Source: Sedimentitalea nanhaiensis DSM 24252
GTDB taxonomy: Bacteria > Pseudomonadota > Alphaproteobacteria > Rhodobacterales > Rhodobacteraceae
Reading direction: 5' to 3'
NCBI RefSeq assembly: GCF_000473225.1
Contig: NZ_KI421509.1
Span: forward strand, 1,714,483-1,778,482
Length of the DNA: 64,000 bases
Below the pieces are notes generated by a model, which saw only the letters and a list, made by a program, of their open reading frames with translations, searched no databases and was not told where the DNA came from. Shown here in pieces: positions 1 through 12,392 of this stretch (position 1 is its first letter; each line of letters begins with the position of its first letter). The position numbers and the translations under genes were made by a program.

Positions 1-290
1 TGGATGTCTCGGGACTAGCCGGAGATCCCTCTCTTCCCTAGTTCTTGGGGTTCTAAGGCTAGGGGAATAGGTATAAGTAATGAATAGAAAGCGGAGGGAA
101 GAGACCCCAGTGTTATCCTTCCTTCCTGACCTAGAATAAGAAGATAGGTGGACTATGGGAGACATAGAGAACCCTTGGCACTCCCGCCCGATCGACGTCC
201 ACAGGTGGTCCGACCATCCCGAGGTGGCGCAACTGTGCGATCGGATCTGGGACGAGTACCTGCCCACCGACCAGACGTCGGGGCCGAAGC
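1..290 (+). repeat. Long repeat, copy A (continues left of window)
   Basis: This 290-bp block matches 2155-2444 in inverted orientation with no difference that I can see, and 6864-7066 in direct orientation with a few substitutions and one single-base insertion. It contains an untranslated leader (1-154) and the first 45 codons of the gene starting at 155. The match to copy B stops abruptly at 290. A small hairpin is visible in the leader (CCCTAG at 36-41 with CTAGGG at 59-64), and a candidate -10 box TATAAG lies at 72-77. Copies B and C extend 234 bp further upstream, so copy A probably does too, outside the window. Confidence 0.95.
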
Positions 291-1588
291 CCAGGACAGC
301 CTTCCGCCATCAACTGCGCGTATTGATCTTGGATCTGTATGTTGCTTGGCTTGAAGACCCGGAACTGTGCATCGGCGTTTCGATGTCTTCAAACTACTGG
401 GATACGAATTCCCGATACAACGCTATTCATATCTCAAGGAAGATCGTCCCCATCATCCGAGTATTAGCGGCTGCTGACCTGCTGGATCTAGCTCGTGGCA
501 GTTACTCGGGCCCTTATGTCCGGGGCAACAGAACAACGAGAATTCGGGCTTCAGAGGTATTACAGGGGTGGTTCGCTGAGGTGACGTTCCAGCGTGATGA
601 CATCGGTCGGGCAGAGAACGAAGAGATCATTGTTCTTCGGGATGCAGAAGACGGAGCGCTGGTAGAATATGAAGACAGCGACGAGATCATCAGGATGCGG
701 GAAGAACTACGACGCTACAATGAGGTCATAGCAGGCGCTTTCATTGATATACCGGTTCTCGATGAACCCAAGATCGACGATGTTTCGACCGATCACCATC
801 ATCGACTGACGCGGCGTATCTTCAGCCGATCGGACTGGAACCTGAATGGGCGTTTCCACGGCGGCTGGTGGCAACAGATCAATAGCGACTGGCGGTCGAA
901 GATCTTCATCAATGACACCCCGGCGGTAGAGGTCGATTTTCGTAGCCTGCATGTTTCGCTGCTCAGCCTTGAAGACGGAGTTGAGTTGACTGACGATCCC
1001 TACGATGTGACCGACGGATTGTTGGGTGGTGTTCCTGCTGCGCTGCAAAGGAAGCTAATCAAGCGGCTGGTCCTGACTGCCATTAACGCAGGTTCGAGGG
1101 ATGCGGCCTTCCGAGCATGTAGGGATGGTTTTCCAAACGGACACGTCGGGAAAACGCTGACGAACGAACAGCTTGAAGTGTTGCTGGCAGCATTCCTCAA
1201 GAACGTTCCACATCTTGAGGGCTATCTATTCGCCGATCAGGGAATTCGGTTGATGAACCTTGATGCCAAGATCATCGAACGGGTTCATCGGCACTTCACG
1301 GAGCAGGATGTTCCTGTTCTTTCCGTGCATGACAGTTGCATAGTCGATTACACGCGGGTCGGAGAACTGAAGCGGGTGATGGCTGAAGCATCCGAAGCGG
1401 TCGCTGGGCGAGCTTTGCCTATAGCGAACCAATTCTACGGGCTAGATGAACAGCAAGACCCCACCGCAGATTTCGTTCGGGACTATATCGTTTGGCGACA
1501 GACAGCGCGGTCAGACGGGTATCTTCGGCGGCTAGCTTATCATGAAGCACGAGCCGGGGTCGAGGTTGAGCCATTCGAACTCAATTAG
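155..1588 (+). CDS. Family-A polymerase-like palm protein of mobile element
   Basis: This 477-aa protein has no name I can give with certainty. Its C-terminal half carries motifs resembling the palm of family-A DNA polymerases or single-subunit RNA polymerases. They are a motif-A-like VEVDFRSLH (Asp261), a motif-B-like helix with Lys300/Lys303 and Asn311, and a motif-C-like SVHDS (His392-Asp393). A GRFHGGWWQ segment precedes motif A at about 232-240. The N-terminal 45 codons lie in the triplicated repeat. The ATG at 155 is preceded by a purine-rich AGGTGG. It converges on the HEPN gene with an 8-nt overlap. Likely roles are replication of the element or nucleic-acid synthesis in defence. Polymerase activity is inference; the palm motifs are what I see. 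Confidence 0.7.
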   Translation: MGDIENPWHSRPIDVHRWSDHPEVAQLCDRIWDEYLPTDQTSGPKPRTAFRHQLRVLILDLYVAWLEDPELCIGVSMSSNYWDTNSRYNAIHISRKIVPIIRVLAAADLLDLARGSYSGPYVRGNRTTRIRASEVLQGWFAEVTFQRDDIGRAENEEIIVLRDAEDGALVEYEDSDEIIRMREELRRYNEVIAGAFIDIPVLDEPKIDDVSTDHHHRLTRRIFSRSDWNLNGRFHGGWWQQINSDWRSKIFINDTPAVEVDFRSLHVSLLSLEDGVELTDDPYDVTDGLLGGVPAALQRKLIKRLVLTAINAGSRDAAFRACRDGFPNGHVGKTLTNEQLEVLLAAFLKNVPHLEGYLFADQGIRLMNLDAKIIERVHRHFTEQDVPVLSVHDSCIVDYTRVGELKRVMAEASEAVAGRALPIANQFYGLDEQQDPTADFVRDYIVWRQTARSDGYLRRLAYHEARAGVEVEPFELN

Positions 1589-2132
1589 TGGTTTCGTCGG
1601 GAAGGAAAATGTCGAGCGTGGTCATTATGATGGACGTCGCGTGTTCGAAGTTTTCATGTTGATCGTCGACGCCCCATTTCCACTTTACGCCGTGGAGCAT
1701 GTTGTTCCGAAGCCGATACACGATGAGAAGAAGCGCTATGAGCTTGTCGCTTGGTTCACTGGTATGGCCGAGCAGAACGTCTTGGATTCTGGTCGCGACC
1801 TCAGTGTCTTTCCCAACCAAATGGCTAAATGACGCGTTCGCCTTACCACCCGTGATGTACCTGTTTCTAAAGTACTCATGAGCCTCTTCGAAATCACCGA
1901 GGCTGGTCCCGTTCAGCGCCTTTGTAGACACGAATTTCTCGATGGTATCCAGGCTCGCGTGAGTGCCCAACGCCTTGTATTCAAAGATACTCCAAGCCAC
2001 TGTGAAATACATCAATGCGGCTTTGATGCTCTGGTTTAGGTCACGATACCCATGATGAGTTCTGCCCAACCAGCCGTCCATTTCTCTAGATGCGTCTTTC
2101 GGATTTTTCCGGAAGTCCGGTCGGGTCGCCAT
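1581..2132 (-). CDS. HEPN-domain protein (possible defence RNase)
   Basis: This 183-aa, mostly helical protein contains YRLRNNMLHG near residues 139-148. That gives the Rx4H signature of HEPN domains (Arg142, His147), followed by a C-terminal helix. HEPN proteins are often RNases in abortive-infection and toxin-antitoxin systems; this role is inferred from the family. The ATG at 2132 is preferred over the in-frame GTG at 2297, because the region upstream of 2155 is duplicated leader DNA from another gene. AAAGGA lies about 11 nt before this ATG. The start sits 5 nt after the stop of the truncated leader ORF (2138-2290), so translational coupling is plausible. No antitoxin-like gene is adjacent. 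Confidence 0.65.
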   Translation of the reverse strand: MATRPDFRKNPKDASREMDGWLGRTHHGYRDLNQSIKAALMYFTVAWSIFEYKALGTHASLDTIEKFVSTKALNGTSLGDFEEAHEYFRNRYITGGKANASFSHLVGKDTEVATRIQDVLLGHTSEPSDKLIALLLIVYRLRNNMLHGVKWKWGVDDQHENFEHATSIIMTTLDIFLPDETTN

Positions 2133-2137
2133 TTCTA

Positions 2138-2290
2138 TCAAATCCTTTTTGGTTGCTTCGGCCCCGACGTCTGGTCGGTGGGCAGGTACTCGTCCCAGAT
2201 CCGATCGCACAGTTGCGCCACCTCGGGATGGTCGGACCACCTGTGGACGTCGATCGGGCGGGAGTGCCAAGGGTTCTCTATGTCTCCCAT
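2138..2290 (-). pseudogene. Leader ORF: truncated duplicate of the polymerase-like gene start
   Basis: The first 45 codons are identical to those of the gene at 155-1588 (MGDIENPWHSRP...). At the end of the repeat the frame runs into different DNA, adds five residues and stops at TGA 2140-2138. The product would be a 50-residue peptide. It keeps the same start context as the intact gene and ends just before the HEPN start codon. It could be a dead fragment from duplication or a translated leader that couples to the HEPN gene. Confidence 0.7.
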
Positions 2291-2678
2291 AGTCCACCTA
2301 TCTTCTTATTCTAGGTCAGGAAGGAAGGATAACACTGGGGTCTCTTCCCTCCGCTTTCTATTCATTACTTATACCTATTCCCCTAGCCTTAGAACCCCAA
2401 GAACTAGGGAAGAGAGGGATCTCCGGCTAGTCCCGAGACATCCACTCAAGCAAGGCTAACGCGGCCCCTAGGCTCGTCTCTGTATGCAAACCAACTGGGG
2501 CACTAAACGGGGGCATTTCCCCGCCAGCGGGTGGGTCGGGTGCTTGGTCTGTTGATCGGAAGATCACTGGCTGGGGTGGTAGGAGACCTTGCCCCCCGAT
2601 GAACCCCAAGAGTTTTTCCCGCCAGTGGCACCGGTGGGGGCAGAAACTGGGGCGGTTTTCGATCCGATAGCGAGCCTC
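2155..2678 (-). repeat. Long repeat, copy B (inverted)
   Basis: On the minus strand this copy reads in the order: 234 bp upstream block (2678-2445), leader, then 45 codons of the polymerase-like gene. It is an inverted partner of copy A (2155-2444 versus 1-290) and of copy C (2678 down to about 2243 versus 6630-7066). The 234-bp upstream block appears identical to copy C; the leader part differs from C at a few sites. Beyond 2678 similarity to C becomes patchy, with an indel, over about 40 bp. Confidence 0.95.
2427..2678 (-). other. Open reading frame inside repeat copy B (ORF X tail)
   Basis: An open frame crosses the upstream block of the repeat and ends with TAG at 2427-2429 (last residues LLEWMSRD). 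Its final 80 or so codons are shared with copy C (6630-6881). It has an FCPHRCHW stretch with closely spaced Cys and His residues, a proline-rich middle and a helical end. In copy B the frame continues upstream into the DUF805 gene region, and in copy C it meets a stop, so no start codon can be assigned. I cannot name a family. It may be the 3' end of a gene that originally preceded the polymerase-like gene by about 137 nt, or it may be non-coding. Confidence 0.3.
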
Positions 2679-2724
2679 GTGAGCGACCAGAGCCGCTAGC
2701 TGGGGCTGAGGGTGGTGTTCGGAA

Positions 2725-3312
2725 TTAGATCCCCTTGCCTTTGAACTCGTCGGTCGGGACGAGAAGCAAGAAGACCGTCGCTGCCAAATTGACTGGTGGC
2801 ACAAGGATCAGTAGGAACCACCATTGGTTGACGCCAGTATCTCTGGTCCGTCGAACTCCAAAAGCAAGCAGTATTGCGACGCTGCTAAGGATAACCAACA
2901 GCGGCAGAACCCCAAGTTCGCTTAGCAACAAGAAGCCCAGGAACAGAGCTATCCCGACGCCCACCTGACAGATAAAGTACTCCATGCGAGATGCGCGACC
3001 AGAGAAGCTAAAAAGGTACTGCAGCCGGGGAAGTAGGGCGGAAATGGCCGCTTTGCTCCCGACCTGAGCGAATTCGTTAGCGGTCGCTGCCTGCTTGGCT
3101 GTCTCCTGAATCTTCTTTTGAGTCTTAGGATCGACGAGCGCAGAGTGGGCGCGTTTGAGCCCCAATTCAACGCTGCGGATAAAGCCCAGACCTGCAGCAC
3201 CGACAAGTGCCAACACCAGCCAGATCGGTACCGGTGGGTGGATTGAAAACCACACTACCGCGAGGATGCAAGAGCAGGTTAGCACGATGACAAAAAGGAG
3301 GAAACGGTCCAT
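2725..3312 (-). CDS. DUF805 family membrane protein
   Basis: This 195-aa protein has two N-terminal membrane segments (about residues 4-48), a polar helical linker and a C-terminal DUF805-like domain. The domain begins near FSGRASRMEYF and includes the RRTRDTGVNQWW motif before the last membrane helix. DUF805 proteins (YhaH-like) are inner-membrane proteins of unknown function. The ATG at 3312 is chosen over an upstream TTG two codons earlier. It lies between repeat B and the integrase operon, transcribed away from the integrase. Its place inside a mobile segment makes it accessory; whether it is a superinfection or defence factor cannot be told from sequence. Confidence 0.8.
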   Translation of the reverse strand: MDRFLLFVIVLTCSCILAVVWFSIHPPVPIWLVLALVGAAGLGFIRSVELGLKRAHSALVDPKTQKKIQETAKQAATANEFAQVGSKAAISALLPRLQYLFSFSGRASRMEYFICQVGVGIALFLGFLLLSELGVLPLLVILSSVAILLAFGVRRTRDTGVNQWWFLLILVPPVNLAATVFLLLVPTDEFKGKGI

Positions 3313-3502
3313 TTTCAACTCATTCTATTGTTTAACTTAGCGCCCGGATTATGCCGAGTTATTGAGCAAGGAGTACCGCGTAATTTCGAAGCGGCAAGAA
3401 TAAAACCAAGTGCAAACCCGCTAAGGCCCACCGAGGTCAAGTTAAACATAGCTTTGGGCATTTGAGAATAGCCGCCTGCAGTCACCCCGAAAACCGAACC
3501 CC

Positions 3503-3535
3503 CTCCTGTATCTAAAATAGAAGCAAATACAGGAG
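3503..3535 (+). promoter_or_regulatory. Inverted repeat covering the ribosome site of the integrase operon
   Basis: CTCCTGTAT (3503-3511) and ATACAGGAG (3527-3535) form perfect 9-bp arms with a 15-nt loop. The right arm contains the AGGAG Shine-Dalgarno of the gene starting at 3543. In RNA the hairpin would hide the ribosome-binding site; as DNA it could be a repressor operator. Either would control the small genes and the integrase that follow. Confidence 0.6.
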
Positions 3536-3542
3536 TTTAACC

Positions 3543-3710
3543 ATGAAGTACCTATCCACCCTCGGCGTCATCGCCGGGGGTTTTCTTTTGACCCCACCAC
3601 CCAAAGCCGTTCTGAGCACGGTGATCTGGGTCGTCGCTCGCTCACACCCCGTCGTCTCGGCGCTGGTGGTGCTTGCAGTCGTGTCAGCGTGGAGGGCGGA
3701 CCATGACTGA
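3543..3710 (+). CDS. Small membrane protein, first gene of integrase operon
   Basis: This is a 55-residue protein starting MKYLSTLGVIAGG with two hydrophobic stretches (about 5-18 and 24-48), so probably a small membrane protein. AGGAG sits 7 nt upstream of the ATG, inside the hairpin at 3503-3535. The stop overlaps the next gene, whose ATG is at 3703. No known family was recognised. Its position at the head of an integrase operon suggests a role in regulation or excision, but nothing in the sequence proves that. Confidence 0.55.
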   Translation: MKYLSTLGVIAGGFLLTPPPKAVLSTVIWVVARSHPVVSALVVLAVVSAWRADHD

Positions 3711-3894
3711 TCTGATCCTCGACCCCGGTGCCATCGTGGTGATCCGGGCCTTTGACGAGGTGCCGGAGCATCGTTTCCGGGTCGATGAAGTGCATGAAGA
3801 CTGCGTGACCGGCATCGCCCTGACCGGGCCTTTGGCGGGTCACTACGGCGAACCCCCGATCGAGTTGATCCTCCGCGTCGCCGACCCCGCTTGA
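3703..3894 (+). CDS. Small protein upstream of integrase
   Basis: This is a 63-aa acidic protein (MTDLILDPGAIVVIRAF...). Its predicted beta-rich pattern suggests a small SH3-like or barrel fold, but I cannot assign a family. The ATG lies inside the 3' end of the preceding gene (8-nt overlap), a typical coupled arrangement. The integrase starts 40 nt after its stop. It might be an excisionase-like accessory, but no helix-turn-helix is evident, so that is speculation. Confidence 0.55.
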   Translation: MTDLILDPGAIVVIRAFDEVPEHRFRVDEVHEDCVTGIALTGPLAGHYGEPPIELILRVADPA

Positions 3895-3934
3895 CGGCAA
3901 TCCCATACATCCCAGAACTGAAAGGAGAAGACTT

Positions 3935-5236
3935 ATGTCTGCTCAGATTCGATATGCGTACCTGAAAGGCCATACGTGGCTCTACCGTCGCAACTACCCC
4001 AAGGACGTGGCCGTGGCACTCGGGTCCGCTGCCCTGAAGCAAAGCCTGAAGACCCGCGACGCAAACACCGCCCGAGTGCGTGCCGCTGAGATCAACGCCC
4101 GCTATGAGACGCTGGTGGTCGATGTTCGGGCTGGCGCTGAAGCGGCGTTCTCTGACTCGGAGAGCGCCCTCCACCGCTCAGGATGGTCAGGTGATGCAAC
4201 TACCGCCCTTGACCACCTGCGGGCCACTCTGGAGCGCTCTGGCACTGTCCTGGAGCGCCCTGAATTCAATCCACTGGTGACCCGCCGAAAGGTATTGGTT
4301 GTGGATCAGAGCAGGGTGTACCTGAACCGCAGAAGCAATGAGTTGCGTCCCGGTGGCTTCAAGTCTGTCCGGTATTCGGTGGGGCTGTTCACGAGCAAGT
4401 ACGGCGACCGGACGCTCTGCAGCCTGACGCGCGCTGATGGACGGGAGTTCCTTGGGTTGGTGGCGCGGCTGTCCCCGGTCATCGGCAAGTCGGAAAAGAC
4501 GCGGGGCCTCAGCCTTGATCAACTGGTCGCCTACTCCGAGGGCTGCACCACCACGATCTCTGTGCGCACCCAGCGGCGCATCTGGTCGCAGGTGAACCAC
4601 TGGCTTGAGACCTGCGTTTACGAGGGTCACCTGGAGCGGAACCCCTTCAAGTCCGTTCTGTTCGACCAGAAGGTCCGGCCCAAGCCCTATGCGGTGCTAA
4701 CCGACGAGGAAGTATCGAGACTGCTCGGGGCCAAGGACGAGCTATACCCGGTTCTGCTGACCTGCCTGCTTTCAGGGATGCGGGCTGGGGAAGCGGTTGG
4801 GCTCCTGCGGGAAGACCTCGTGGCTAAGGGCAATCTCGGGTGCTTCGTTCATGTCAGACCCAATGAGCTTCGACTGCTGAAGACGGAAGCAGCGGAGCGG
4901 CTGGTTCCGGTCCACCCGGCTCTGGATGAGACACTCCGGGGGTTGCCATCGGCTGGCCCGCTGTTTCCGGGTCGAACCGTGGCGCAGGTCACCAAGGGGT
5001 TTGCGGCGCTTCGAAAACGTCTGGCGATCGAGCGTCCAGGGCTGGTGTTTCATTCGACCCGAAAGTGGTTCGTGACCCAGTGCGAGCGAACAGGCGTCCC
5101 GGAACACTTCACGGCTTCTGTGGTCGGGCACCAGTCGGCGCGGTCAGAAAATGGGTTGACCTACGGGATCTACTCGGCAGGCATAAGCGACGAGCAGAAG
5201 CGCGGCATCGTTGACCAGATCCGTCTGCCATGCTGA
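3935..5236 (+). CDS. Tyrosine recombinase/integrase
   Basis: This 433-aa integrase has an N-terminal DUF6538-like, AP2-like arm-binding region (YAYLKGHTWLYRRNYP, residues 8-22), a core-binding domain around 125-235 and a C-terminal catalytic domain. Visible catalytic residues are Arg283 in SGMRAGEA, Lys316, His373 and Arg376 in HSTRKW, His399 in GHQSARS and the nucleophile Tyr413 (or Tyr410) in TYGIYS. AAAGGAG precedes the ATG by about 7 nt. All key residues are present, so it is probably active. It should integrate and excise the element spanning this region; its att site was not identified. Confidence 0.93.
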   Translation: MSAQIRYAYLKGHTWLYRRNYPKDVAVALGSAALKQSLKTRDANTARVRAAEINARYETLVVDVRAGAEAAFSDSESALHRSGWSGDATTALDHLRATLERSGTVLERPEFNPLVTRRKVLVVDQSRVYLNRRSNELRPGGFKSVRYSVGLFTSKYGDRTLCSLTRADGREFLGLVARLSPVIGKSEKTRGLSLDQLVAYSEGCTTTISVRTQRRIWSQVNHWLETCVYEGHLERNPFKSVLFDQKVRPKPYAVLTDEEVSRLLGAKDELYPVLLTCLLSGMRAGEAVGLLREDLVAKGNLGCFVHVRPNELRLLKTEAAERLVPVHPALDETLRGLPSAGPLFPGRTVAQVTKGFAALRKRLAIERPGLVFHSTRKWFVTQCERTGVPEHFTASVVGHQSARSENGLTYGIYSAGISDEQKRGIVDQIRLPC

Positions 5237-5403
5237 TCCCCGACATCGACGCGTTCGAAGAGAGGGCCGCTATCGCTGAATTCGATGGCGGGTTATCTCG
5301 CCGAGCGGCTGAAGATCTGGCCGCTCAAGCGCAGGGGTTCGCCAACGCTGATGCCTACTGGCAGTGGCTGGCTGACTACGTCGTGACCCGGAAGATACCA
5401 TGA
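5230..5403 (+). CDS. Small conserved protein overlapping the integrase end
   Basis: This 57-aa protein starts MLIPDIDAFEERAAIAEFDG. Its ATG lies inside the last codons of the integrase (7-nt overlap), so it is almost certainly co-translated. The pattern ERAAIxEFDGGLxRxxAE resembles a short helical motif I associate with alphaproteobacterial plasmid and integrative-element proteins, with a Trp-rich end. The exact function is unknown. I interpret it as a conserved companion of this integrase type. Confidence 0.55.
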   Translation: MLIPDIDAFEERAAIAEFDGGLSRRAAEDLAAQAQGFANADAYWQWLADYVVTRKIP

Positions 5404-5649
5404 TCCTAACCTCGGCGGGCCCTAGCGGGTTTGCCGGGGCTTCCACTTTACTTTTTTTCATTGCGAGTTGCTCACCGCTGGTGGCACGGGTCGCAAGCCG
5501 CCCCCAATGGGTTGGGAGAGGCGAGGGATCAACGACTTGGTGCGCGAGGTCAGAGAAATCTAGCGAACCGTTTGAAGCCAACTACCTGAAAATACTATCA
5601 CCCCGGGCGGGTTACTGATGTAACATGTGGAAAGTTTAGGCAGGCTGGA

Positions 5650-6312
5650 TTAGGTGATGCGTGAGCGTCGCCGCGCCCCAATACCCAGTGTCAATAGCCC
5701 TATCGCCAGAAGCGGTGCAGCGGCAGGCAGAGGAACGGGGGCGATTTCGGTGATGGTGAGATTTCTCAGATTGAAACCAGCAGTTGTCATACCATATTCA
5801 TACAAATTGTTGTTCAAATAGAATCCACCGCCACTCGCACCGTCGACGAGCGACAGGCTGCCTTCACCCGTCACCGGATCGCCGCGCAGATACCATTCTC
5901 CAAGGCCAAAGACAGACATGAGTCTAAAGCCAGTCAAATCAAATGCCGTCGAACCTACGAAAGCAGACATCCGGTTAAGATCAGAACACAGAAATCCGCT
6001 ATGACAATCGACGGTTTGGAGTTCTAATTCATCGCCCTGCAAACGCATTGCGACATGCCCGGTCTGACCCATCAGGTTGGACCATCTATGAGCGCCTGCC
6101 GCCATGATCTCTTGGTAGAAGGGGTCGGCGTGGCTTATTTCCCGGAGCGTCCCATCGCCTCCAAATCGCGAACTCTCATACAAGGTGCCGACGGAAAACG
6201 ATGATCCCACCACATCAAATTCGTAGCTGATGGTTTTGGCTTCGGCCTGAGTGGAATGCATTCCAAACAGAAGTCCGGTTATCATCAATAAGCGAAACAT
6301 TTCGAAATCCAT
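5650..6312 (-). CDS. VPLPA-CTERM sorting-domain exported protein
   Basis: This 220-aa protein has an N-terminal signal peptide (MFRLLMITGLLFG, cleavage near AEA) and a secreted middle of unknown fold. Its C-terminus VPLPAAAPLLAIGLLTLG followed by ARRR matches the VPLPA-CTERM type of PEP-CTERM sorting signals common in Rhodobacteraceae. In those systems a membrane exosortase processes the tail. An alternative start at 6300 gives a shorter, cleaner signal peptide; neither has a strong ribosome site. Its presence between the integrase and repeat C suggests cargo of the element. No exosortase is in the window. Confidence 0.85.
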   Translation of the reverse strand: MDFEMFRLLMITGLLFGMHSTQAEAKTISYEFDVVGSSFSVGTLYESSRFGGDGTLREISHADPFYQEIMAAGAHRWSNLMGQTGHVAMRLQGDELELQTVDCHSGFLCSDLNRMSAFVGSTAFDLTGFRLMSVFGLGEWYLRGDPVTGEGSLSLVDGASGGGFYLNNNLYEYGMTTAGFNLRNLTITEIAPVPLPAAAPLLAIGLLTLGIGARRRSRIT

Positions 6313-6629
6313 TTTTGTGAAACAGCGTATCTTGGCACGCTTTCAAAAACTCACGAACGTGTCAAGCAAACTGAGAAACTGACTCGAAAATAGATTCTCG
6401 AACTCAGACCGTACCGCTACCGGCTGGCGGAGTGCTGCTACTTACCGGGTTACCGGACCTAGCTGCGGCGGCAGGGTTCGGCTACCGAAAGAAGCGGGCC
6501 AACTAGTCCGTCACCACCAGAACCAAGCAGTCCAGCGTGTGAGGTACTGCGGCGGGGTGTCGGGCACACCAGCACACCAGCGCCCCACCAGCCAGCTAGC
6601 CGCTCCAATGACTAGTCCAGGGGCTCAGG
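6313..6629. other. Intergenic stretch, no convincing gene
   Basis: These 317 bp separate the VPLPA-CTERM gene from repeat C. The left part is AT-richer and must hold the promoter of the VPLPA-CTERM gene. The right 40-50 bp resembles the DNA just beyond repeat B (for example AGCTAGC near 6593), with extra bases, so the repeat once extended further. A proline-rich open frame over 6539-6805 looks like a shadow of the repeat. Confidence 0.5.
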
Positions 6630-6881
6630 GAGGCTCGCTATCGGATCGAAAACCGCCCCAGTTTCTGCCCCCACCGGTGCCACTGGCGGGAAAAACTCTT
6701 GGGGTTCATCGGGGGGCAAGGTCTCCTACCACCCCAGCCAGTGATCTTCCGATCAACAGACCAAGCACCCGACCCACCCGCTGGCGGGGAAATGCCCCCG
6801 TTTAGTGCCCCAGTTGGTTTGCATACAGAGACGAGCCTAGGGGCCGCGTTAGCCTTGCTTGAGTGGATGTCTCGGGACTAG
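6630..6881 (+). other. Open reading frame inside repeat copy C (ORF X tail)
   Basis: The same frame as in copy B ends at TAG 6879-6881, 137 nt before the truncated polymerase-like start at 7019. Upstream of about 6615 the frame meets a stop because of extra bases relative to copy B. It is identical to copy B at the DNA level, so there is no synonymous-change evidence that it is coding. Confidence 0.3.
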
Positions 6882-7018
6882 CCGGAGATCCCTCTCTTCC
6901 CTAGTTCTTGGGGTTCTAAGGCTAGGGGAATAGGTATAAGTAATGAATAGAAAGCGGAAGGGAAGAGGACCCGGTGTTATCCTTCCTTCCCGACCTAGAA
7001 TAAGAAGATAGGTGGACA

Positions 7019-7066
7019 ATGGGAGACATAGAGGACCCTTGGCACTCCCGCCCGATCGACGTCCAC
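7019..7066 (+). pseudogene. Truncated polymerase-like gene, third copy
   Basis: ATG at 7019 begins MGDIEDPWHSRPIDVH, one residue different from the intact gene at 155 (Glu-Asn to Glu-Asp). After 16 codons the IS3-family element begins, and the rest of the gene is absent on the far side. This shows a third copy of the gene start and probably a deletion caused by the insertion. Confidence 0.85.
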
Positions 7067-7104
7067 TGGACGTGTCGCGCTTTTGTGCTGTCCCAAGTGC
7101 TCGT

Positions 7105-7962
7105 TTAAGCCACGTTCCGTTCGAAGGCGACCGGGCTTTTCCAACCCAATGCTGAGTGCCGTCGACGCGGATTGTAGAAGCCGTTGATGTATTCGAAGAT
7201 CGCGATCGCGGCTTGCCGCCTTGTTTCCCACGACCGTCGCCAGATCAGCTCGGCCTTGATGGTCTTGAAGAAGGTTTCGACGGCAGCGTTGTCGTAACAA
7301 TTGCCTTTTCCACTCATCGATACCTCGAAGCCATGCTGACGCAGGATCTTCTGGTAGTCGTGGGAACAGTATTGGCTGCCGCGGTCCGTGTGATGGATGC
7401 AGCCCCTGGGCGGCGCACGGAACGCAATGGCCATGTTCAACGCCCGGATCTCCAGGTCCCGCTTCATGCGATTGCTGACGGCCCAGCCGATGACCCGCCG
7501 GGAATGCAGATCAAGGATGACCGCCAGATACAGCCAGCCTTCTTGGGTCCAGACATAACTGATGTCGCCCGCCCATTTCCGGTTCGGACGGGCTGCCGAG
7601 AAGTCCCGGTTCAGCAGGTTCGGTGCGATGTTGAAGCTGTGGTCGCTGTCCGTGGTCGCCTTGAACGTCCTGTTCCTTCTAACCGCAATGCCGTTATCAC
7701 GCATCAAGCGTCCGATGCGGCGGTGGCCGACTGGCAGGCCCAACTCTTCCAATTCCTCGGTCATGCGTGGCCGGCCATAGCTGCCGAGAGACAGGGCGAA
7801 CTGTTCACGGATATGAGCCGGCACAACCATGTCCTTGCGTTGGCTCTGGCTGAGGGGACGGCTTCGGAAGGCCCCATACCCCGGCGGGCTGACATCCATG
7901 ATCTGGCACAGCCATTGGACGGGCGACATTTCGGCGTGCTTTGCGATGAAAGCGAACCTCAT
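7105..7962 (-). CDS. IS3-family transposase OrfB
   Basis: This 285-aa DDE transposase has an HTH_21-like N-terminal part (SLGSYGRPRMTEEL) and an rve integrase core. The core contains WAGDISYVWT (first Asp), HTDRGSQY (second Asp) and the catalytic Glu in YDNAAVETFFKTIK, and the protein ends with the typical YNPRRRHSALGWKSP. Its ATG overlaps the OrfA stop (ATGA), so translation is coupled; in this family OrfAB fusion by frameshifting is also usual. The OrfB frame is intact. Confidence 0.93.
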   Translation of the reverse strand: MRFAFIAKHAEMSPVQWLCQIMDVSPPGYGAFRSRPLSQSQRKDMVVPAHIREQFALSLGSYGRPRMTEELEELGLPVGHRRIGRLMRDNGIAVRRNRTFKATTDSDHSFNIAPNLLNRDFSAARPNRKWAGDISYVWTQEGWLYLAVILDLHSRRVIGWAVSNRMKRDLEIRALNMAIAFRAPPRGCIHHTDRGSQYCSHDYQKILRQHGFEVSMSGKGNCYDNAAVETFFKTIKAELIWRRSWETRRQAAIAIFEYINGFYNPRRRHSALGWKSPVAFERNVA

Positions 7963-8235
7963 TTGCTTCGCTCCGCAAAGAACTGGGTGGCCTTTTTTAG
8001 CACGTCCCTCTCCTCCCGGAGCATACGGTTCTCTTTCCGCAGCTCGGCGACCTCGCGCTCGAGATCGGATTGGGCGGCTGGCTTCTCGGGATTGCGCCGA
8101 TCCTGCTGGATCCAGCGGCTCAACGTCGAGAAGCCGACGCCAAAATCTGCTGCAACCTGCCTACGCGGCAAACCGCTCGTCAACGCTAGCCGCCACTGCC
8201 TCGGCGCGGAATTCCGGGGTTGGTTTCACTACCAT
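7959..8235 (-). pseudogene. IS3-family OrfA, frameshifted near its start
   Basis: ATG at 8235 begins MVVKPTPEFRAEAV, the normal start of this OrfA type, but an extra G near 8197 shifts the frame into an early stop. Removing that base restores VRLALTSGLPRRQVAADFG and a full-length HTH plus leucine-zipper protein ending at 7959. A TTG at 8183 could give a shorter product that retains part of the HTH. With OrfA damaged, autonomous transposition is probably impaired. Confidence 0.7.
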
Positions 8236-8362
8236 GATGTCTCTCCTTTGTGGCAAAATACCAAGTCAAAGGAGCGGAACAATTCCGTGACAGGTCCAAA
8301 CTGCTTACCGCACGGTTCGTGCGCACGCTGGCAGAAAGCACCCGGCATCGGACCGGGGCTGC

Positions 8363-8770
8363 TCATCGTTCAGACGTTGATCCGAATTGCCGCCAGGCCA
8401 AAACCGAAATAACCGCCCAGACGCCTGTACGCAGGGTCATCTCGCCGACGGTACGGGCTTCATAGGTACCGCCTTGCAGAACATGCATGCCAAAGCCCAG
8501 GAAAACCAAAACGGTACAGCCGAAGATGCCCAACGAGATCCATACCGCTGGACGGTGCCGCAGAAACAGCCCGACGCCGGCCACGACATAGGCGAACCCG
8601 GCCAGGAAGTTGAACCATAGCACGAAGGGCACGGCATCGCCCACCGCCGCACGGGCCTCGGCCCCGCCGAACAAGGCACGCCCACCCGAAAAGACGGTCA
8701 GCACCCCAAACACGATGGCCACAGCCGCCGCGATCTTCAGGGTATTGCTGCCAGAGTTTGCCTCGGTCAT
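8363..8770 (-). CDS. Small integral membrane protein linked to ABC exporter
   Basis: This 135-aa protein has four predicted membrane helices (about 10-30, 45-68, 74-95, 105-128) and no catalytic motif. Its ATG overlaps the stop of the ABC ATPase gene (ATGA at 8767-8770), so it is the last gene of the exporter operon. No family was recognised. It ends 65 bp from the IS element, the first backbone gene after the mobile region. A role in the exporter is inferred only from the operon. Confidence 0.8.
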   Translation of the reverse strand: MTEANSGSNTLKIAAAVAIVFGVLTVFSGGRALFGGAEARAAVGDAVPFVLWFNFLAGFAYVVAGVGLFLRHRPAVWISLGIFGCTVLVFLGFGMHVLQGGTYEARTVGEMTLRTGVWAVISVLAWRQFGSTSER

Positions 8771-9474
8771 GCCATATCTCCCCCGTCAAGCCGCCCATCG
8801 CGCAGATGGAACAGTTTGTCGAACCGGTCATAGATCTTTTCGTCATGCGTCACCGCAATGATACAAGCATCCTGTTCGGCGGCAAGTTTGCGCAGCAGAT
8901 CCATCACGATCCCCGCCCGCTTGCTGTCGAGCGCGGCTGTTGGTTCGTCGGCCAGAATGATACGCGGGCTATTGGCCAGAGCGCGGGCGATGGCGACCCG
9001 CTGCGCCTCGCCGCCCGACAGAAGTGCCGGCATCGAATCCTTGCGGTGACCAACCTCCAGGTAGTCCAGCAATTCAAGGGCGCGCCGTTGCGCTTCGGTT
9101 GCGGATTTCCCGGCCAGTTTCAGGACAAGCGCCACATTATCCTTGGCATCGAGAAACGGCAACAGATTGTGGAATTGAAAAATGAACCCGATCTTGTCCA
9201 GCCTCAGCTTGCGCAGGTCGCTGCGAAGCCAGCGGTTGTCATAGACCAGTTCATCGTCCAACGTGACCTTGCCAGCGCTCGGATCGATAATGCAGCCAAT
9301 GACGTTCAGAAGCGTCGTTTTTCCCGATCCGGACGGGCCGAGCAGCGCCACCACTTCGCCTGCATGCACCGCAAGATCGATATCCTTCAGGGCATCGACA
9401 CGGGCATCGCCTTCGCCGAAATGTTTGGAGACATTGGCCACATCGACAATCACCCGGCGCGGGTCCACGGACAT
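8767..9474 (-). CDS. ABC exporter ATPase (LolD/MacB/DevA-type)
   Basis: This 235-aa nucleotide-binding subunit shows Walker A GPSGSGKTT, the Q-loop region FIFQFHNLLPF, signature LSGGEAQRV, Walker B IILADEPTAALD and an H-loop VTHDE. The start at 9474 (MSVDPRR) is preferred to a longer in-frame start at 9555, because it follows the permease stop by 4 nt. With the downstream-membrane permease and HlyD-like adaptor it forms a DevBCA/MacAB-style exporter. The substrate is unknown (lipid, peptide or drug). Confidence 0.93.
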   Translation of the reverse strand: MSVDPRRVIVDVANVSKHFGEGDARVDALKDIDLAVHAGEVVALLGPSGSGKTTLLNVIGCIIDPSAGKVTLDDELVYDNRWLRSDLRKLRLDKIGFIFQFHNLLPFLDAKDNVALVLKLAGKSATEAQRRALELLDYLEVGHRKDSMPALLSGGEAQRVAIARALANSPRIILADEPTAALDSKRAGIVMDLLRKLAAEQDACIIAVTHDEKIYDRFDKLFHLRDGRLDGGDMA

Positions 9475-9478
9475 CGCC

Positions 9479-10615
9479 CTATCCCCCGATCGCAGTGGCC
9501 GGATCGACCTTGAGCGCCGCGCGCACGCCAAGTCCGCTGGCGGCGATGCAGACAACCAGAATGATCCCGGCCAGGGCGGCGGCGTTGATCGGCTCCAGCA
9601 CCACCCGGCGTGGGAAATAGTCCTTGACCAGCAGGATCAGGATCAAACCAAAGCTCCATCCGACCGCACCCAGGGCCAATGATTGCTGCACGATCAAGCC
9701 GATGATGGTGCGATCAGGCGCGCCGATCAGCTTTAGTGTGGCAATCTGCTTCAGCTTTTCCATGGTCATGGTGTAGATGATCAGCGCAATCACCACTGCC
9801 GAAACGGTCAGCAGGATGCCGAGAAACAGGCCGATCTGCCGCTTGGCGCGATCCACGACAGAGAGCAGCAATATTGATTCCTGATCGGCCTGTGTCAGGG
9901 CCGTCAGATGCTTCCACTGCTGCACCGTCTGCGCCACGGCCTGTGGGTCAGCGTTCGGCTTCAGCCGCGCGATCACGGCTGCGACGCTATCCTGGCTTTC
10001 CAGCAGCCCGGCACCTCGCGCCTCCTGAACGCGCTGCGCCGCAGGTGCCAGCTGAGTTTGCAGCACCTGGGCGTCACGCAGTGTTATGAACGCCGCAGGA
10101 TCTCCGCCCGAGTTCGTCGTATCTTCGACCAGTCCAACAACCGTGAATGGGTTGCGCCCCAACCGGATCACGTCGCCGATGGACAGGCCGGATTTGACAT
10201 CGGCCACGATCTCGAAATGCGATTGTTCAATTCCGCGCCCCTGCGAGACCACATCTGGACCGCCGGGGCGGCCTGGCTCGTAGCCGATAAGATAAAGCCG
10301 CAGCGTATCGCCGCGAAAAGGTGCTTCGACGGTCTGATAGGTGATGCTGCCGGCTGCGACCACGCCATGCAGCCTCGCCACCGCATCGCGGGTACCGCCG
10401 GGAAGTTTCGACGCTTCGGCAAAAGGCCCCTGGGTGCCGGATTCAACGACCCACAGGTCGACCTGCGGCGCCTTGACGATATTCAGCGCGTCAGAAACCA
10501 ACCCGTTGTAGATGCCGATCATCGCCAGAACGACCGCCATCAGCAGACTCAGCCCCAGACAGGTCAGTACGAAGCGGAACAGGTTGTGGCGCACATCGCG
10601 GTAGGCAAGATTCAT
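9479..10615 (-). CDS. ABC exporter permease (FtsX/MacB, DevC-like)
   Basis: This 378-aa permease has one N-terminal membrane helix (about 14-36), a large periplasmic domain (about 40-255) and three C-terminal helices (about 268-288, 312-345, 350-370), the FtsX/MacB topology. The ATG at 10615 overlaps the adaptor stop (10612) in an ATGA. It should move substrate from the inner membrane or periplasm using the ATPase encoded next. Confidence 0.92.
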   Translation of the reverse strand: MNLAYRDVRHNLFRFVLTCLGLSLLMAVVLAMIGIYNGLVSDALNIVKAPQVDLWVVESGTQGPFAEASKLPGGTRDAVARLHGVVAAGSITYQTVEAPFRGDTLRLYLIGYEPGRPGGPDVVSQGRGIEQSHFEIVADVKSGLSIGDVIRLGRNPFTVVGLVEDTTNSGGDPAAFITLRDAQVLQTQLAPAAQRVQEARGAGLLESQDSVAAVIARLKPNADPQAVAQTVQQWKHLTALTQADQESILLLSVVDRAKRQIGLFLGILLTVSAVVIALIIYTMTMEKLKQIATLKLIGAPDRTIIGLIVQQSLALGAVGWSFGLILILLVKDYFPRRVVLEPINAAALAGIILVVCIAASGLGVRAALKVDPATAIGG

Positions 10616-11766
10616 GGCCCATTCCCCCCTGACACGCGCACCAAACGACCCTCGGCCAAGCCCTTGGCCGGGGTGGAAATGACGCGCGCGCCATCGGGCA
10701 GATCGCTGACCAGTTCGACGCGTGCATCTTCGGTCCGGTAACCGAATACCGCCGACACCCGCGCTGCACGTCCGTCCTGCGCAATCCAGATGCGTCCTTC
10801 ATGCCCGTCAAACCCGGTTATGGCGATCTCCGGAACCAGCAGGGCTTTGGTCAGTTCGGCCACCGTGATCCGCACCTCTGCCTGCTCGCCCAGAAAAACC
10901 TGCACCGGGCATTGTTCGCAGGCAATCCAGACCCGGCGCTCCTCGTTCACCCGGTCGCTTTCGATCCCGATCCGTACGATCTTTCCGCTGAACACTTGAT
11001 GAGGCAGAGATCGCAACCGCACTTCGGCGGTTTGCCCGATCGACAGTGCCCCGGCGCGCTCTTCGTCGACATAGGCCAGCGTCCAGACCGTCGCCGGGTC
11101 CATCAGGGTAAATATTCGCTCACCCGCGCGGACAACGGTTCCGGTTTCGACATGGCGCTCGACGATCACCGCATCAAAGGGTGCCCGCAGAACGTGTTGG
11201 TTAAGCAGCACACGCTCGAATTGCAGGGCTGCCTCGGCATCTTTGTGCATGGACCTCGCCACCTCGGCTTCGCTTGCCGCGACGGCCAGATCGGCTGCGG
11301 CGACATCGACATCACGTTGCGCCTCTTCAGCAGCTTCGGCCGAAACGGCATTGCGGCCCGCAAGTTCCTTCCGCCGCGTATTGGTCGCCTCCCGCTGCGC
11401 CAGAATGGCGCGGGCACGAGTCACGCTCGCTTCTGCCTTTGCCAACGTGGCCTTTGCGGCAGCAACGCCAGCCTCGGCCCGCGCAACCCGCGCCTGCTGT
11501 TGCGCCGGATGAAGGCGGGCCAGAACCTGTCCCTTGGAAACCGCATCTCCGCTGTCGACATCAAGCGCGGACAGGGCCGCACCAAGCTCGAAACCGACGT
11601 CCGAAACGATCCTGGCCTCGACCGTGCCCAATCCGTAAATGCGAATCGGGACATCATGTGCAACAGATGCGATAGAAACACGGATCGGGCGCTCCATCAG
11701 GAAAAACCAGCCAAAGCTAACACCAGCCACGGCAAGAACAGCGGCCAAGACAATGCGATGCTTCAT
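10612..11766 (-). CDS. HlyD-family periplasmic adaptor of ABC exporter
   Basis: This 384-aa membrane-fusion protein has an N-terminal anchor (about 5-24), a lipoyl/barrel-sandwich half motif (LDVDSGDAVSKGQVLARL), a long Ala-rich coiled coil (about 95-190), a second lipoyl half (LRAPFDAVIVER) and beta-barrel domains. Two Cys residues (CEQCPVQ) lie in the barrel region, an unusual detail. Its ATG overlaps the TetR stop (11763). It likely links the permease to an outer-membrane channel that is not encoded here. Confidence 0.9.
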   Translation of the reverse strand: MKHRIVLAAVLAVAGVSFGWFFLMERPIRVSIASVAHDVPIRIYGLGTVEARIVSDVGFELGAALSALDVDSGDAVSKGQVLARLHPAQQQARVARAEAGVAAAKATLAKAEASVTRARAILAQREATNTRRKELAGRNAVSAEAAEEAQRDVDVAAADLAVAASEAEVARSMHKDAEAALQFERVLLNQHVLRAPFDAVIVERHVETGTVVRAGERIFTLMDPATVWTLAYVDEERAGALSIGQTAEVRLRSLPHQVFSGKIVRIGIESDRVNEERRVWIACEQCPVQVFLGEQAEVRITVAELTKALLVPEIAITGFDGHEGRIWIAQDGRAARVSAVFGYRTEDARVELVSDLPDGARVISTPAKGLAEGRLVRVSGGNGP

Positions 11767-12392
11767 CGTAAGCTCTCCGGATTGGGAAGACGGATCAACC
11801 GTATTTGCGCGTCAAGCAGGCGGCGCCCTTCAGTCACAAGAGCAAACCCTCGCTGGCCCAATGTCCATCGCATCGCCAGCCCCTGCACCAGCGATACCAG
11901 CAACAGCGCTCCGTCTTCGGGGGGCAAGCCGGGGTCGAACAGACCCGCTTTCTGACCCTCGGCCAGCTCGCGGGTCAACATCGCGACCAACTGGGTCATC
12001 AGGGCAAGAACGGATCGGCGCAGGTCGTCGTTTTCCACCTGCAACTCGCGCGAAAACAGGATCGACGGGATTGCCGGCATGGCCTCGATCTGGCGCAACT
12101 GCCCGAGGATCAACGCTTCGATCCGAGGCCCCGGATCGTCCGACGACGCCAGCGCTTCAGCCCAGGTCGCCTTCAGGCGCTCAGAGATCAACGCGGTCAC
12201 AGCTAACCACAGATCCTGTTTGGTTCGAAAATGCCGAAAAATGGCCGGCTGCGTCAGGCCGACCGCATCGGCAACGGCTTGCGTCGTCAGGCGATCCGGA
12301 CCCAATTCATCCGCAAGGCGCAGCACGGCGGCTGCGATCTCGGCCTTGCGCTCGTCTGCAGGCTTGCGACTCAACATGTGATATTGCCACAT
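11763..12392 (-). CDS. TetR-family repressor of the ABC exporter operon
   Basis: This 209-aa protein has an N-terminal TetR helix-turn-helix (VADAVGLTQPAIFRHF, about 43-58) and a helical ligand-binding C-terminal domain. It is the first gene of the exporter operon, with each following gene overlapping the previous. It most likely represses its own operon through the inverted repeat just upstream (12396-12417). An alternative ATG lies five codons in (12377); neither start has a strong ribosome site. Confidence 0.9.
   Translation of the reverse strand: MWQYHMLSRKPADERKAEIAAAVLRLADELGPDRLTTQAVADAVGLTQPAIFRHFRTKQDLWLAVTALISERLKATWAEALASSDDPGPRIEALILGQLRQIEAMPAIPSILFSRELQVENDDLRRSVLALMTQLVAMLTRELAEGQKAGLFDPGLPPEDGALLLVSLVQGLAMRWTLGQRGFALVTEGRRLLDAQIRLIRLPNPESLR

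Follow-up and report, generated by a model that had tools for sequence, protein, structure and literature searches.

Inverted attachment-like repeats and two putatively flippable sectors in a small integrative element at the tRNA-Gln gene of Sedimentitalea nanhaiensis

The repeated block and its genes

The stretch of DNA analysed here, called the window throughout, comprises 64,000 nucleotides of contig NZ_KI421509.1 from Sedimentitalea nanhaiensis DSM 24252 (Rhodobacteraceae), and its first 7 kb hold three copies of one block that appears to be the repeat arm of a small integrative element. All coordinates are window positions 1-64,000 unless a locus label (L or G with a number) is given. An earlier note on this DNA had taken the block for an expression cassette; a self-comparison of the window confirmed that the copies are real, lie where the note had placed them and are far beyond chance. 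Copy A (1..290, forward strand) is a partial inverted-repeat arm with a leader motif and the start of a polymerase-like gene up to codon 45. Copy B (2155..2678, reverse strand) contains an internal, inverted attP-like site (P arm, core and P' arm), the leader motif and 45 polymerase codons. Copy C (6630..7066, forward strand) is the right-hand attP-like site, with the same three parts, the leader motif and 16 polymerase codons, after which an insertion sequence (IS) breaks the gene off. B is inverted relative to both A and C and forms the border between the two sectors of the element, named U and I below. Positions 1-290 match 2155-2444 in inverted orientation at 100%, so that A equals B over exactly 290 nt counted from window base 1, while 2347-2678 match 6630-6961 (inverted, 332 nt, 100% when rounded) and 2240-2350 match 6959-7069 (inverted, 111 nt, 94%). 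Seen from the core, B and C agree over 111 nt back from its 3' end, the core included, and over 218 nt forward of it. Just upstream of the window stands a fourth copy, D (L023 17445-17900), identical to C plus the start of its IS over 456 nt. D is followed by a gap of 100 N that ends directly before the window's first base, and since A abuts this assembly gap it is truncated, its true left neighbour is uncertain and its core side, if present, is lost. A scan of 1-9000 with Rfam returned no family at the gathering score.

Following A, as the note had said, stands the full gene of a 477-aa polymerase-like protein (155..1588, forward strand), the main gene of the U sector. The protein matches PHROG 4756 and no Pfam family. 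Its motifs A, B and C are conserved, with D261, K303, H392 and D393 invariant across 11 aligned proteins. In a Foldseek search with a predicted model (pLDDT 72, pTM 0.62), the best solved structure was a Bacillus Pol I fragment at E 1.2e-4, but with a TM score of just 0.29 on a model of that pLDDT; the search also came near phage proteins, several of them unnamed and one annotated as a DNA polymerase. We count the protein as a predicted palm-fold enzyme with motifs A, B and C that is nearest to the family A polymerases. Following B, the 45 polymerase codons run through 5 foreign codons into a TGA (2140-2138), and after another 5 nt comes the ATG, at 2132, of a 183-aa cargo protein whose gene (1581..2132, reverse strand) converges with that of the polymerase. 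HEPN ribonucleases are defined by the HEPN fold together with an R-x4-6-H motif, and the cargo protein is HEPN-like by its R-x4-H motif only, which is kept (RNNMLH / RNNTFH) in two homologues of 50% identity, one in the window and one in L038. It matches PHROG 27260, of unknown function, at E 7.2e-8 and has no match in Pfam, NCBIfam or the PDB; its AlphaFold2 model is all-helical, of low confidence and too poor for a structure search.

The I sector holds a tyrosine integrase (3935..5236, forward strand) that matches DUF6538 (E 3.2e-11), PHROG 1 (E 1.9e-32) and Phage_integrase, the last at E 9.9e-6 and 25.9 bits, just below the Pfam cut-off of 27.1. Its companion is a DUF805 protein (2725..3318, reverse strand), also found in L190 and L194. 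The IS at about 7066..8298 (reverse strand) has the IS3-type transposase domains rve and HTH_21 and ends in imperfect inverted repeats starting TGGAC; it is not part of the element, and the polymerase gene is not resumed beyond it.

Copies B, C and D share a 17-nt core, TCCTACCACCCCAGCCA, which is the last 17 nt of tRNA-Gln(TTG). In B it lies at 2568..2584 on the reverse strand, in C at 6724..6740 on the forward strand, where it directly repeats the 3' end of the tRNA-Gln that precedes the window, and in D at L023 17445+, where the copy runs on from an intact tRNA-Gln (L023 17387-17461). The gene for tRNA-Gln(TTG) occurs in 10 of the 17 loci scanned and is near the block wherever both occur. 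Because the block holds the 3' end of this tRNA and D continues an intact one, the 17 nt most likely serve an integrative element as its attachment core. The remaining marks of such an element are present as well: the tRNA 3' end is repeated directly at both ends, the tRNA is left intact, and there is a tyrosine integrase gene.

The second constant part of the block is the 17-nt leader motif AATAGGTATAAGTAATG, which a motif search places at 66..82 in A (forward strand), 2363..2379 in B (reverse strand) and 6929..6945 in C (forward strand), and which is followed by mostly purine-rich sequence. We aligned 40 distinct copies, a set that admits up to 2 mismatches and from which identical 60-nt contexts were removed, so its invariance is partly by construction. 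Looser versions exist, with 2 mismatches in L186 and L190 and 3 in L193, and an exact match of 26 nt in L022 came from a search without that motif filter. With 1 mismatch allowed, the motif occurs in 23 of 394 family genomes, and the reversed control has no match in the table. The distance from motif to core is 86-355 nt in most copies that have an upstream core, with extremes of 609 and 1344, and in the plain element L204 the motif stands directly before the polymerase gene and far from the core. This variable distance and the placement in L204 make an attachment arm not likely; in the polymerase-type repeats, where it faces into U, the motif is probably a promoter or an origin used by that sector. 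Five IMG/VR viral contigs (L144-L148) carry the exact 17 nt, by chance or in some other context; the parts of them that were examined contain neither a core nor a related polymerase. Locus L127 has motifs that face inward between two outward-turned cores (8620-11500), within a 618-nt repeat of 81%, and also a normal core-motif block at 11474.

Architecture of the element across genomes

The arrangement recurs well outside Sedimentitalea. With the integrase as query against 390 genomes drawn from the order (E <= 1e-60), matches were found in 25 genomes at 29 places, of which 25 were examined in 24 regions (G669, G160, G641 and G510 were left out). Both inverted core pairs were present in 10 of these regions, one pair in 4 and none in the other 10. 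In eight of these last the contig stops within or close to the element, L204 is an ordinary element, and the 20 kb of L203 contain no core. For the full set of 52 scanned regions the counts were 10, 7 and 35, where the last class includes L073, L077, L068 and L025, scored in this way for a core that is missing, damaged or past the contig end though self-comparison shows their repeats. The two-pair regions, which are the window genome (G000), G040, G327, L186, L189, L190, L193, L194, L196 and L201, belong to 10 genomes of 9 genera. Nine of the ten are free of N, the exception being the window genome, and L190, L193, L194 and L196 lie inside contigs of 1.1-4.2 Mb.

In the integrated elements there are three cores in the orientation +,-,+, and the order runs from the tRNA gene through core, P' arm, U sector (polymerase or DUF5906 helicase, with cargo), P' arm, inner core, P arm, I sector (integrase, with cargo) and P arm to the outer core and the chromosome. 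The internal core is thus where two kinds of inverted repeat come together; in the window genome D and B make up the U pair, with the gap between them, and B and C the I pair. The U-side repeats of the ten elements measure 158-706 nt at 87-100% identity and the I-side repeats 153-440 nt at 85-100%, except in L189, whose I-side match extends across a second, inverted U and measures 2464 nt. In the cleanest case, G040, a U-side repeat of 447 nt and an I-side repeat of 153 nt, both at 100%, have the core in common. Near-identical inverted repeats, each with a core that would serve as recombinase site, are therefore seen in the integrated form in 10 of the 52 regions. The I sector of G040 also encodes a DUF2779/RNase H protein with a weak resemblance to Cas4 (L026 13931-15376).

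A circle with two inverted attP sites should give rise to four integrated orientations of the sectors, and all four are seen. In the seven three-core elements that bear the polymerase, the direction of the polymerase and integrase genes was compared with the tRNA: away/away once (the window genome, with the caveat of its gap), away/toward three times (G040, L186 and L193), toward/toward twice (G327 and L190) and toward/away once (L196). The two genes point the same way in three of the seven and opposite ways in four, so both relative orientations occur, in a comparison between genomes and not within one clone. The pair of HEPN-like and polymerase genes is likewise found both ways round, with the HEPN end joined to the I sector in the window and to the tRNA in L038. 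In L189, two neighbouring U copies are mutually inverted and 99.7% identical over 2307 nt without gaps, the second being cut by the contig end, and in L201 one U stands between two mutually inverted integrase sectors, whose integrases are 96% alike.

The content of U varies. Of the ten two-pair elements, seven have the polymerase there, L194 and L201 a DUF5906/VapE-like helicase and L189 an adenylate cyclase; the one-pair element L202 has a DUF5906 helicase too. Other genes in U or next to the repeats are the HEPN-like gene (window and L038) and those for a weak EF-hand protein (L029), flavodoxin (L070), a type ISP restriction enzyme (L071), a kinase (L073) and a cytidine deaminase with DUF2971 (L069). 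In the DUF5906-type elements the repeats (L202 2383-2745, and those of L194, L201 and L189) include part of a gene that by eye resembles an HNH endonuclease, and such a nuclease inside the repeat could promote repeat conversion.

Exchange of sectors between elements is likely, though not proven, when their sequences are compared. The integrases of L186 and L189 are 92% identical, while their U genes differ and their U DNA has no match beyond the repeats. Across ten elements the similarity matrices of polymerase and integrase are uncorrelated (Mantel r 0.08, reached by 1156 of 5000 permutations), and in a tree test the integrase split is rejected on the polymerase data (p 0.0016).

The two-attP design was seen at tRNA-Gln only, and even there it is not universal, as L155 and L204 demonstrate. 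Plasmids gave no match when searched by DNA with the block and three records when searched by protein. One of them, pBEN of Paracoccus versutus (L155 6161-18652), shows a plain form, with tandem integrase-polymerase units beside tRNA-Gln and no inner core or motif; one of its units matches only parts of both genes. Viral contigs scanned with the single polymerase protein yielded no relative, and scanned with the polymerase alignment they yielded ten distant relatives. Two distant polymerase relatives lie in plain elements at tRNA-Leu (L084) and tRNA-Gly (L082); there the tRNA end is repeated directly and, by self-comparison, has no inverted copy. Two more (L137 and L138) adjoin an integrase beside tRNA-Cys, which suggests that small elements targeting tRNA genes commonly carry the polymerase. 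Near another (L086) are a 629-nt inverted repeat of 76% (4127-4755 against 11186-11814) and a 281-nt direct repeat. One sub-clade has a small gene between motif and polymerase (L026 9327-9578, L027 18518-18814 and L073 about 2056-2376), with a weak resemblance to DUF1413 in L026 (E 0.049).

Repeat edges and the explanations weighed

The earlier note had proposed that promoter, leader and a coupled gene start form a fixed unit into which exchangeable genes are loaded, with a sharp junction near codon 45 as its own test. Part of this stands: the block does recur in other genomes before different genes (HEPN-like, flavodoxin, cyclase, kinase and DUF5906 helicase), the motif comes back in 40 distinct copies and points inward within the repeats, and the single recent duplication that the note had named as competitor is insufficient, because one duplication would not place the block before different genes elsewhere. 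The fixed start-codon unit itself does not hold. In copies with the polymerase start, the edges scatter from about codon 14 to 70: L025 at 14, L002 at 16, L040 at 26, L196 at 32 and 43, L072 at 34, L038 at 44, window B at 45, L028 at 45 and 64, L030 at 47, L068 at 48, L085 at 52, L081 at 54 and L069 at 70. The edge positions, taken by eye or from the ends of BLAST matches, are accurate to within a few codons, and the 15 exclude copies C and D, cut by the IS, and L039, whose polymerase is truncated after 196 codons. Eight of the 15 fall at codons 43-54, a loose preference with no fixed point and no explanation, in which the window and L038 share ancestry as bearers of the same gene. Coupling is not conserved either, for the spacing of stop, 5 nt and ATG in window B has no counterpart in L038, where the borrowed frame extends over 79 codons and overlaps the HEPN-like gene in another frame; in the 10 copies examined, borrowed frames stop after 34-129 codons. 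Furthermore, it is the 3' end of the polymerase gene that lies at the repeat edge in L026, L070, L073, L077, L186, L190 and L193, the copy holding the last part of the gene. In L070, L071 and L190 the motif leads into that end, and the DUF5906-type elements L194, L201 and L202 have repeats and inverted cores but no motif. An expression cassette with a fixed junction is rejected by the scattered edges and non-conserved coupling; as stated it is refuted, and we regard this reading as very unlikely. The 45 borrowed codons are the edge of a repeat, and the constant heart of the block is the integrase attachment site plus the 17-nt motif. The variable edges look like repeat expansion and contraction, comparable to what happens at the borders of chloroplast repeats.

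We consider it quite probable that the block is the inverted-repeat arm of a small element with two flippable halves that integrates at the tRNA-Gln(TTG) 3' end. Recombination of the outer direct cores would release a circle on which two complete attP sites face opposite ways; U would be flipped against I by the integrase or by homologous recombination between the repeats, either attP could enter the tRNA gene, and co-resident elements could swap sectors. Such recombination would keep the repeats near-identical and let their edges creep into neighbouring genes, and creeping edges would leave truncated copies of gene ends, here the 45 polymerase codons before the HEPN-like gene. A further step, which we hold only tentatively, would make the element a bacterial counterpart of the yeast 2-micron plasmid, a two-attP circle with its own polymerase or helicase in which inversion by the integrase turns theta into double rolling-circle replication while sectors are traded. 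Several observations weigh against the two-sector element. Excision, inversion and the circle, like any amplification of the 2-micron kind, are inferred from sequence and none was observed; 35 of 52 regions have no readable inverted pair, many of them remnants or at contig edges; L155, L204, L069 and L040 show direct cores only; G042 and G285 depart from the scheme, with an unexpected pair spacing and, in L071, an inner site broken at the core. The away/away orientation class depends on the window genome, whose D-B pair spans the gap, and orientation differences between species could stem from ordinary rearrangement. Sector exchange is only partly backed by the trees, since the reverse test, of the polymerase splits on the integrase data, gives no rejection (p 0.136 and 0.132).

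The most serious competitor, unlikely as we judge it, is that the repeats grew by homologous recombination only, the inverted core being what is left of two elements that once inserted, or were rearranged, at a single tRNA gene. In that case the inner core would never be acted on by the integrase, and RecA-type recombination in the repeats would change the orientation, for which the U-side repeats would be long and similar enough; tandem elements do exist in L155, L071 and L201. The full core and both arms are nevertheless kept across 10 genomes, the integrases of which agree at 59-76% with that of the window, which suggests selection on a working site, and the recurrence of the inverted inner core is left unexplained. 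The suggestion that the 477-aa protein is a phage-type single-subunit RNA polymerase, with the 17-nt motif as private promoter for itself and the cargo, is distinctly improbable to us. Motif C (HDS) and motif B (K-x-L-V-L-T) resemble those of T7-like RNA polymerases, and TATAAGTA inside the motif is in our view similar to a yeast mitochondrial promoter; the Pfam family RNA_pol is touched by 2 of 18 members (best E 0.012) and 1 of 10 further proteins (0.2), L033 being in both sets, hhalign scores phage RNA polymerases at 30.9, N4 gp16 at 22.1 and phage DNA polymerases at 17.5, and in L204 the motif immediately precedes the polymerase gene. All of those scores are insignificant, however, a histidine and not a glycine occupies the presumed steric-gate position, which we take to count against an RNA polymerase, and in the fold search DNA polymerase I came first and human mitochondrial RNA polymerase at rank 45, with one phage relative annotated as DNA polymerase. 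As the sequence scores are insignificant and the structure leans toward Pol I-like folds, this reading is kept as a rival only. Mis-joined repeats in draft assemblies could in principle create inverted copies, contigs often end in repeats, and copy A does abut a gap, but the same structure lies inside the long N-free contigs named above and the repeats of the ten differ by 0-15%, which makes an artefact barely credible. A free-standing transposon with terminal repeats is out, since the tRNA-Gln core lies inside the repeats and the outer cores are in direct orientation.

If the two-sector reading is true, the element is a natural Flp-like inversion system in bacteria at a tRNA gene, it accounts for truncated gene copies at element ends, and it offers small islands a route of sector exchange by which to change replication genes and cargo, while copy amplification driven by inversion becomes testable outside yeast.

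Comparison with known systems

In the usual description of an integrative element, the circle has a single attP. Within the titles and abstract starts of open-licence PMC literature we found no description of a bacterial integrative element that has an inner, inverted attP, which is weak evidence of absence. As in other elements with a tyrosine integrase that target tRNA genes, among which the tycheposons are counted, the tRNA 3' end serves as core, the outer repeats are direct, tandem arrays occur and the size is small; unlike them, the window-type element has an extra, inverted and complete attP inside, and both arms are repeated. It is like the pipolins in being an integrative element at a tRNA gene with its own polymerase and tyrosine recombinase. 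The piPolB of pipolins is, however, a primer-independent family B enzyme, whereas the polymerase of the window-type element is family-A-like, and the terminal att repeats of pipolins are described as direct (PMC7385651), whereas the window-type element has an inverted inner site.

The archaeal integrases IntSNJ2 and that of pTN3 can, according to an excerpt of the source, catalyse inversion between opposite sites (PMC8371274). As far as that excerpt goes, those inversions are assay or chromosome-scale events, not the work of a built-in attP repeat pair that splits one element. The window-type element is also unlike a shufflon, in that it does not join one constant start to alternative protein ends, and the copied polymerase codons run to stops. 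Shufflons and invertons, for their part, flip segments between inverted recombinase sites.

The closest layout is that of the yeast 2-micron plasmid, in which two identical inverted repeats, each with the site of its own tyrosine recombinase, split the circle into two unique sectors, with both relative orientations occurring. The repeat of G040, at about 583 nt (447 + 153 - 17), is like those of the plasmid, which are given as 599 bp with an embedded FRT in the part of the source available (PMC6594588). Unlike the plasmid, the window-type element is bacterial, integrates at a tRNA gene and has no partition genes identified; the likeness is one of layout, seen in integrated elements. Judged by its sequence, the element would work as a two-repeat circle of the 2-micron type that also integrates, and we file it, as a variant, among the tRNA-targeting integrative elements.

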